Assembly: GCA_902614395.1 (NCBI GenBank)
Contig: CACMKW010000002.1
Span: 67,356 to 131,355 of the forward strand
Reading direction: 5' to 3'
Length of the DNA stretch: 64,000 nucleotides
DNA from: an uncultured Alphaproteobacteria bacterium
GTDB lineage: Bacteria; Pseudomonadota; Alphaproteobacteria; HIMB59; GCA-002718135
Below, piece by piece: positions 27,770 to 29,475 of the stretch (the first letter of the stretch is position 1; every line of letters begins with the position of its first letter). Both the position numbers and the translations under genes were made by a program. The notes under the pieces were generated by a model. That model was not told where the DNA came from. It did not search any database and saw only the letters and a program-made list of their open reading frames with translations.

Positions 27770-28243
27770 TTAACAATCGTTAATTAACTGATTATACGCA
27801 GCAGTGAATCCATTAAGAGTATAGGTGTCATTGGTAATAGTGCCTCTTGAAGACTCACCTGTAACCTTAAGCTCTAATCCTTTTTTCATAGCAAAAATTA
27901 CTTTTGCATCTTCTTCTGTCCAAGCAGCAGTTGGCAAGTCTTCTGTTGTATAAAATTTGTATTCTCCCTTATCTATCTTTACAATAATATCAGATGGGAC
28001 TTTGTAGCTATAACCTGCTTCTATTTGAACTACAGTATCAGGATTACCAATATTTTTATAAACAAGAACGTAGAAGTTTCCTCTTTTCTTATCACTAGGT
28101 AAATCTGTTTCAGTTGCTAAGCTACCTACGTAACAATACTCATCAGCTTTCTCAAAAGACCACTTGCCAGTCTCTAAGCCCATTAAGGTGGAAGGCACTG
28201 CTACATATAGTACTATAAGAAACTTAATAAAAATTTTCATCAA
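27770..28243 (-). CDS. Invasion-associated locus B (IalB) family periplasmic protein
   Basis: A 157-residue exported protein. The signal peptide covers about residues 1-22, followed by a single compact domain with WSFEKADEYCYVGSLA, IEAGYSYKVPSDI, AAWTEEDAKVIFAMKKG and the closing GTITNDTYTLNGFTAAYNQLI then DC. The two Cys (after EY and at the C-terminus) are the usual IalB pair. The family is widespread in free-living alphaproteobacteria, where its function is unknown; the name from Bartonella should not be read as virulence. It is divergent from the ECF sigma gene, and 69 bases separate the starts. Confidence 0.8.
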   Translation of the reverse strand: MMKIFIKFLIVLYVAVPSTLMGLETGKWSFEKADEYCYVGSLATETDLPSDKKRGNFYVLVYKNIGNPDTVVQIEAGYSYKVPSDIIVKIDKGEYKFYTTEDLPTAAWTEEDAKVIFAMKKGLELKVTGESSRGTITNDTYTLNGFTAAYNQLINDC

Positions 28244-28312
28244 TTGGTTCTTTTAGTATATCTTATGCAAATAGTTAAGAAAGTTTAGACTATGTTTGAT
28301 AATTTATAAAAT

Positions 28313-28849
28313 ATGGAAAAATCACATTTAAACAGCTTGATGAGCAAAATTCAAAGACACCGCGACGAAATGGCTTTCTCAGAAATTTTTGATTATTTTG
28401 CCCCAAAAGTTAATGCCTATTTTATCCAAAATAGTATCAAATTTGAGAGCTCCGAAGAGTTAACACAGGAAGTTTTGAGCACAGTTTGGGCAAAGTCAGA
28501 TCTATATAATTCAGAAAAATCAGCTCTCTCAACATGGATTTTTACTATAGCAAGAAACAAAAAAATAGACTTTTTCAGGAAAAATTCAAAGGTAGATTTT
28601 AAGGAAGAAGATATAAGAGAGTTTTTATACCAAGATAGAGAAGTTGACCTCATTAAAGAAAATGAAGCAAAAAAACAGATAGAGAGAATAAATGATGAAC
28701 TGGATGAACAGCAAAAAATAATGATAAAAATGAATTTTTTTGAGAATAAAAGTCATAAAAAAATTGCAGATGAGCTTGAAATTCCTTTAGGGACAGTTAA
28801 ATCAAGAATAAGGCATATCTTAACAAAAATGCAGGAATTTTTAACATGA
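28313..28849 (+). CDS. rpoE: ECF-type RNA polymerase sigma factor (RpoE/ChrR-partner group)
   Basis: A 178-residue alternative sigma factor. Region 2 spans about residues 20-85, with SSEELTQEVLSTVWAKSDLY (core binding) and STWIFTIARNKKIDFFRK (-10 recognition). Region 4 near the end has LEIPLGTVKSRIRHILTKMQ, the helix-turn-helix for the -35 box. The following gene, overlapping by four bases, is a ChrR-like anti-sigma factor. In Rhodobacter this pair responds to singlet oxygen. Expected targets include photooxidative-stress genes, but no target promoter was confirmed in this window. Confidence 0.92.
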   Translation: MEKSHLNSLMSKIQRHRDEMAFSEIFDYFAPKVNAYFIQNSIKFESSEELTQEVLSTVWAKSDLYNSEKSALSTWIFTIARNKKIDFFRKNSKVDFKEEDIREFLYQDREVDLIKENEAKKQIERINDELDEQQKIMIKMNFFENKSHKKIADELEIPLGTVKSRIRHILTKMQEFLT

Positions 28850-29475
28850 ATGGAACAGTAGTAAAAAACCAGCTTATATTTGATTTTGCATCTGGGCTTT
28901 TAGGTCCAGCAAAGTCGCTATTTGCTTCAACATATTTACAATTAAATTCAAATGCTTCTAAAATTAGCAGTACATTTGAAAATATGTTGGGTGAAAATCT
29001 AATGGATAATGAAAACATTCATCCTAAAAACCTAAAATATACAGATTGCATTAAAAGCGAAAATGGAAAAACTACGCTGAATACTAAAGATCCAGTAACT
29101 AGATACTTTGGAAACCTTAACAATTTAAATTGGAAACAAGTTTATAAAGGTTTTAAAGAGTACACAGCATCTATTGACGATAAAGATGAATTAAAATTAA
29201 TTAAAATGGACCCTGGAGTTTCTGTACCACTTCACTCCCATGGTGGAAAAGAGTTCATATTAGTTTTAGAGGGCAGCTTCTGCGATGAATATGGTGAATA
29301 CTCTAAAGGAGACATTCAGATAAATGATCAAAAAATAAAACACACCCCAATCGCGTCAAGAGATACTGGCTGTGTATGTTTAAGTATTACTGAAAAAGAT
29401 GTTATTTTCTTTGGTAAGTATGGATCTTTCTTAAATTTATTTACATTTATTAAATCTTTTTTTAAGCCAAAATAA
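28846..29475 (+). CDS. chrR: ChrR-like cupin anti-sigma factor lacking the zinc-binding ligands
   Basis: A 209-residue partner of the upstream sigma factor, overlapping it as ATGA. The N-terminal anti-sigma domain aligns with ChrR without gaps around FASGLLGPAKSLFASTYLQL. But the zinc triad His-x3-Cys-x2-Cys is replaced by Tyr-x3-Asn-x2-Ala (STYLQLNSNAS). The C-terminal cupin domain keeps its own metal site: PLHSHGGKEFILVLEG supplies two His and a Glu, and IKHTPIASRD supplies the last His. So the sensing domain looks intact while the sigma-binding domain must fold without zinc. Adjacent to its sigma and almost surely functional. Confidence 0.88.
   Translation: MNGTVVKNQLIFDFASGLLGPAKSLFASTYLQLNSNASKISSTFENMLGENLMDNENIHPKNLKYTDCIKSENGKTTLNTKDPVTRYFGNLNNLNWKQVYKGFKEYTASIDDKDELKLIKMDPGVSVPLHSHGGKEFILVLEGSFCDEYGEYSKGDIQINDQKIKHTPIASRDTGCVCLSITEKDVIFFGKYGSFLNLFTFIKSFFKPK

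Follow-up and report, generated by a model that had tools for sequence, protein, structure and literature searches.

An alphaproteobacterial ChrR-type anti-sigma factor that lacks the zinc ligands of its anti-sigma domain

The window analysed here is a 64,000-nucleotide stretch of a 1.35-Mb assembly (78% complete) from an uncultured alphaproteobacterium, whose order we take to be HIMB59 in GTDB. It contains a gene for an extracytoplasmic function (ECF) sigma factor and, overlapping it by 4 bp, an open reading frame for a ChrR-type anti-sigma factor whose anti-sigma domain (ASD) has none of the residues with which ChrR binds zinc (Table 1). The arrangement is that of SigE-ChrR from Rhodobacter sphaeroides (ECF11; PDB 2q1z, 2z2s), where a sigma factor gene is likewise followed by a gene for a two-domain anti-sigma factor. 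Among solved structures, R. sphaeroides SigE is the best match of the window sigma factor (118.3 bits, with SigK next at 46.2). The anti-sigma factor has ChrR (2q1z) as its top fold match, and its second domain, which matches Cupin_7 at 49.2 bits (cut-off 27), retains the cupin metal site of two His, Glu and His, as the initial annotation had stated.

Table 1. Features of the sigma/anti-sigma gene pair, with window coordinates; relatives are the related proteins from a large protein database
Feature	Position	Strand	Details
Gene for the ECF sigma partner	28313..28849	+	178 amino acids; Sigma70_r2 and r4 domains
ChrR-type anti-sigma factor gene without ASD zinc ligands	28846..29475	+	209 amino acids; TIGR02451, Cupin_7, fold match
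Anti-sigma domain, approximately residues 1-69	28846..29052	+	Alignment to ChrR; median dN/dS 0.089
Val5, opposite ChrR His6	28858..28860	+	2z2s_B register extended; V/L/A/T/I in 215/217 listed relatives
Tyr30, opposite zinc ligand His31	28933..28935	+	ChrR and family alignments; Tyr in 216/216 covering relatives
Asn34, opposite zinc ligand Cys35	28945..28947	+	ChrR and family alignments; Asn in 216/216 covering relatives
Ala37, opposite zinc ligand Cys38	28954..28956	+	ChrR and family alignments; Ala in 216/216 covering relatives
Cys68, sole ASD cysteine, in stretch aligned with helix IV	29047..29049	+	216/216 covering relatives
Cupin-like domain, approximately residues 93-184	29122..29397	+	Pfam Cupin_7 at residues 114-179; median dN/dS 0.042
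Cupin metal ligands His130, His132, Glu136	29233..29253	+	His in 216/216, Glu in 217/217 relatives
Cupin metal ligand His166	29341..29343	+	217/217 relatives

Absence of the zinc site

R. sphaeroides ChrR binds zinc through His6, His31, Cys35 and Cys38, and this metal is required for inhibition (PMC6852236). None of these residues is found in the window protein. A phmmer alignment to PDB chain 2z2s_B (R. sphaeroides ChrR) places Y30, N34 and A37 opposite H31, C35 and C38, and extending the same register places V5 opposite chain position 6. Because the N-terminal segment alone contributes just 3.1 bits to this match, the register rests also on the family alignment, which agrees with it. The histidines and cysteines of the protein are H59, C68, H130, H132, C146, H166, C176 and C178, with none in residues 1-58, so the zinc site is absent in any alignment register and a wrong register is ruled out as the cause of the apparent loss. 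The window ASD thus has neither the H-x3-C-x2-C motif nor the N-terminal His of zinc-binding anti-sigma (ZAS) domains, and the motif occurs in none of 217 related proteins from a large protein database.

Relatives and other alphaproteobacterial ChrR proteins

Our comparison within the order used 61 genomes, i.e., the window's own and 60 relatives, whose names include 'uncultured Alphaproteobacteria bacterium' and 'Pelagibacteraceae bacterium AG-337-I02'. We read the AG- names as largely marine single-cell records. A match was found in 49 of the 61 genomes and in all 10 of those at least 90% complete. The residues Y-N-A stand at the ligand places in 97/97 rows of the genus (some genomes appear twice, as two collections overlap) and in all 216 of the related proteins that cover the three places, the remaining one being gapped there. 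Sequencing error or a one-genome oddity is ruled out by these counts, and the initial claim that Tyr, Asn and Ala replace the ligands and that the N-terminal His is gone holds on the alignments, on the composition of residues 1-58 and on the relatives. A mixed-alignment search for other lineages returned 1037 matches, the best 120 of which are all 57-91% identical to the window protein.

The ligands are also missing in the second (sister) family of the order, in 22/22 rows (a count that leaves out the fragment L050, which does not include the domain), where the residues are L-D-N (17), L-V-N (4) or V-S-G (1). These sister-family proteins (L028-L049) apparently start later, seemingly lacking the beginning of helix I.

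The ASD is under purifying selection. Within the genus, the median ratio of nonsynonymous to synonymous substitution rates (dN/dS) is 0.089 over residues 1-69, with values of 0.252 over the linker and 0.042 over the cupin domain, from 997 pairs of genus rows with a total dS of 0.1-0.8 (964-997 usable per part), which share sequences and are not independent. The C-terminal tail SFLNLFTFIKSFFK (residues 185-207, 29398-29466) is hydrophobic and near-invariant across the genus, with a median dN/dS of 0. The pairing with a sigma factor is retained in the order: a sigma match is present in 119/122 loci, with a 4-bp overlap in 95 of those 119 (starts being chosen mechanically).

Beyond the order, a TIGR02451 search of 289 alphaproteobacterial genomes gave a match in 148. 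From the listed matches we took 117 for reading (30 loci from the search and 87 regions, with few of the short or cupin-only matches further down or of the unlisted ones among them) and set aside L229, which is from the window's own genus, and L235, L236 and L238, whose ASD is unreadable, leaving 113 proteins. Among these, 84 have H31, C35 and C38 plus a His near the N-terminus (zinc-type), and 29 are missing one or more of these three core ligands (zinc-less). The window protein is therefore not unique in lacking ASD zinc ligands. Both cysteines are missing in 24 zinc-less proteins, while the first is kept in four and the second in one. As in the window protein, the cupin site is intact in all 28 zinc-less proteins that cover it (one is cut off), and 82 of the zinc-type proteins align with all four cupin ligands, one not being covered and one aligning otherwise. 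Unlike the window protein, 28 of the 29 have residues other than Y-N-A at the ligand places; the exception is L224. A named carrier of a zinc-less ChrR was not found among ten plasmid records chosen from the 88 and 90 with matches, all ten of which keep H-x3-C-x2-C.

A quick tree was built from 122 rows, 13 of them from the window's order, with the ligand columns blanked and without L233, L234, L237 and L239, which are short or divergent. It has many weak branches, and the rows of the window's order differ in composition. On this tree the zinc state has to change 16 times, but its well-supported branches force only four changes. With labels shuffled, 34 changes are required, which means that zinc-type and zinc-less proteins cluster. 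Ligand loss thus recurs, with approximately 4 to 16 losses or reversals in this sample. The two families of the window's order occupy separate long branches near the base of this weak tree, so the tree accommodates either a single or a double loss there.

Ligand loss shows no link to small genomes. Genomes of up to 2.0 Mb contribute 3/29 zinc-less and 5/84 zinc-type proteins (Fisher p = 0.42; some genomes give two proteins), and 26 of the 29 zinc-less proteins come from genomes of at least 2.4 Mb, with a locus GC content mostly of 0.39-0.72.

A probable metal-free anti-sigma domain and its alternatives

The reading we prefer, with a probability of about 0.68, is that the gene pair encodes an ECF11-like SigE-ChrR stress switch in which the ASD keeps its fold without metal and still holds the sigma factor, leaving sensing to the cupin domain. 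The three-helix core of the ASD would be held by packing, with Val5, Tyr30 and Ala37 where the zinc sat, and the metal-free domain would sequester the sigma factor as the zinc-free RseA does. A signal of singlet oxygen or organic peroxide would then enter through the cupin domain and not by oxidation of a zinc-thiolate site, possibly followed by proteolysis. The zinc-independent fold had been proposed in the initial annotation, and purifying selection, fixed replacements, the adjoining sigma gene and the ChrR fold match favour it by inference. Its further suggestion, an altered release by singlet oxygen or peroxide, is possible.

The switch probably controls a run of genes elsewhere in the genome (G000:C1:112138-117335; L252 2639-7836), judging by gene content only. 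The run encodes a photolyase, an amine-oxidase-like protein, DUF1365, a CMAS-type (cyclopropane-synthase-like) protein and DUF2878. Such genes are targets of SigE-ChrR elsewhere. A review names furan fatty acid genes as core targets (PMC6852236). Single-family searches detected DUF1365 in 51 of the 61 genomes of the order and in 1 of 14 control genomes. The corresponding counts are 59 and 7 for the photolyase FAD domain and 60 and 13 for CMAS, so only DUF1365 is specific.

Several points weigh against our preferred reading. The only ChrR for which mutants have been studied, that of R. sphaeroides, cannot do without its zinc (PMC6852236), and the window protein scores 114.7 bits against TIGR02451 (over residues 6-200), which is under the curated cut-off of 124.5. 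Its predicted structure is of moderate confidence, with a mean predicted local distance difference test score (pLDDT) of 69.1 and 54 over residues 41-50. In other ChrR proteins, the place of Cys35 holds Ser, Asn or Asp in 18 of 25 changed residues, which gave the idea that Asn34 caps helix III, but this was dropped because the model fuses helices II and III into one continuous helix (21-49) across Asn34. By eye, the photolyase run showed no evident promoter in common with the sigma gene, the photolyase start having been located in 4/11 loci. Finally, a sigma gene lies in the fetched flank of 20/29 zinc-less loci compared with 74/84 zinc-type loci (none was detected at L205, L191, L210, L209, L217, L214, L207, L224 and L239), so in some other lineages the loss of ligands may accompany loss of the anti-sigma role.

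Of the alternatives, all of which we hold to be unlikely, the least so is that Cys68, in the stretch aligned with the sigma-binding helix IV, has replaced the zinc cysteines as the sensor of oxidants, and that its oxidation would displace the sigma factor. Cys68 is the sole ASD cysteine, is invariant in the covering relatives and adjoins Asp67 in nearly all of them, and other ChrR proteins mostly have Val or Leu in its column. However, Cys occurs there in 6/84 zinc-type, 0/29 zinc-less and 0/22 sister-family proteins, and with none in the latter two groups Cys68 does not serve as a substitute in general. Gaps in this region also make its alignment uncertain, and a lone cysteine may be merely structural. 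A fuller version, specific to this marine genus, is a shade more doubtful: the zinc-thiolate sensor would have been swapped for Cys68 in the sigma-binding helix, singlet oxygen or peroxide would hit the anti-sigma/sigma interface, and the cupin domain would provide a second, metal-based input.

It is improbable that inhibition by the ASD has been lost, with the protein acting only via its cupin domain and the sigma factor unrestrained or under some other control. This would fit the zinc requirement of R. sphaeroides ChrR (PMC6852236) and the nine of 29 zinc-less loci from other orders whose fetched flank showed no sigma gene, but purifying selection on the ASD (0.089), the invariant residues where the ligands used to be and the tight coupling to the sigma gene in the window's order all weigh against it.

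The initial annotation had offered low zinc in surface seawater as the selective cause, and this we now regard as very improbable. Both families of the order, which by our reading of the AG- names are largely marine single-cell records, are indeed without the zinc site. Against this, the cupin metal ligands are all kept, loss recurs in 29/113 other proteins mostly from large genomes with a locus GC of 0.39-0.72, and there is no excess of loss in genomes of up to 2.0 Mb.

Least probable of all is that the ASD binds zinc via other residues or shares metal with the cupin domain, for although Asp67 and Cys68 are conserved and mixed inter-domain coordination has been proposed for oxidised ChrR (PMC6432622), they are the only His, Cys, Asp or Glu in residues 1-85 conserved in >80% of 218 rows, and a normal four-ligand site needs more than these two.

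Known systems and neighbouring sequence

Zinc-free ASDs are known from RseA and RskA, neither of which is known to be a cytoplasmic protein of the ChrR type that carries a cupin sensor. Both are described as class I ASDs without the zinc motif (PMC6852236, PMC7406223), a likeness to the window ASD that is by description, and RseA has the same fold without zinc (PMC6852236). The motif is missing from approximately 44% of class I ASDs and from 28% of the soluble ones, and a single group can hold members of both kinds, AS19-1 and AS27 being named as mixed (PMC7406223). ChrR's own group, AS11, is given without comment on zinc in the available part of that paper, and ChrR regulators are described elsewhere as having zinc cysteines (PMC8999054). 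Our searches of open-access papers, supplements and figures (e.g., the zinc ring in Fig. 2 of PMC7406223) excluded, found no description of a zinc-less ChrR.

The finding bears on what the ASD zinc of ChrR does in singlet-oxygen sensing. In a peptide study, a mimic of the zinc site was quick to react with singlet oxygen and lost its fold, and the authors put this site forward as the sensor (PMC6432622). Mutants of R. sphaeroides ChrR show that the cupin domain is needed for the response, which depends on Glu147 and His177 but not on Cys187 and Cys189, and the review reporting this regards the role of the ASD zinc as unknown (PMC6852236). ChrR proteins without the zinc site and both cysteines but with the cupin site are natural separation-of-function cases, and the window protein, under strong selection despite its lost ligands, provides a natural test of the role of zinc. 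If such proteins prove to bind the sigma factor and to respond, then sensing does not require the zinc finger.

Upstream of the sigma gene, and divergent from it, lies a gene for an IalB-family protein (27770-28240, - strand; Pfam PF06776, 38.4 bits). The block between the two genes (28241-28312; TTTTAGTATATCTTA ... TAGTTAAG) is kept in most genus rows, not in more distant rows, and could serve either gene.
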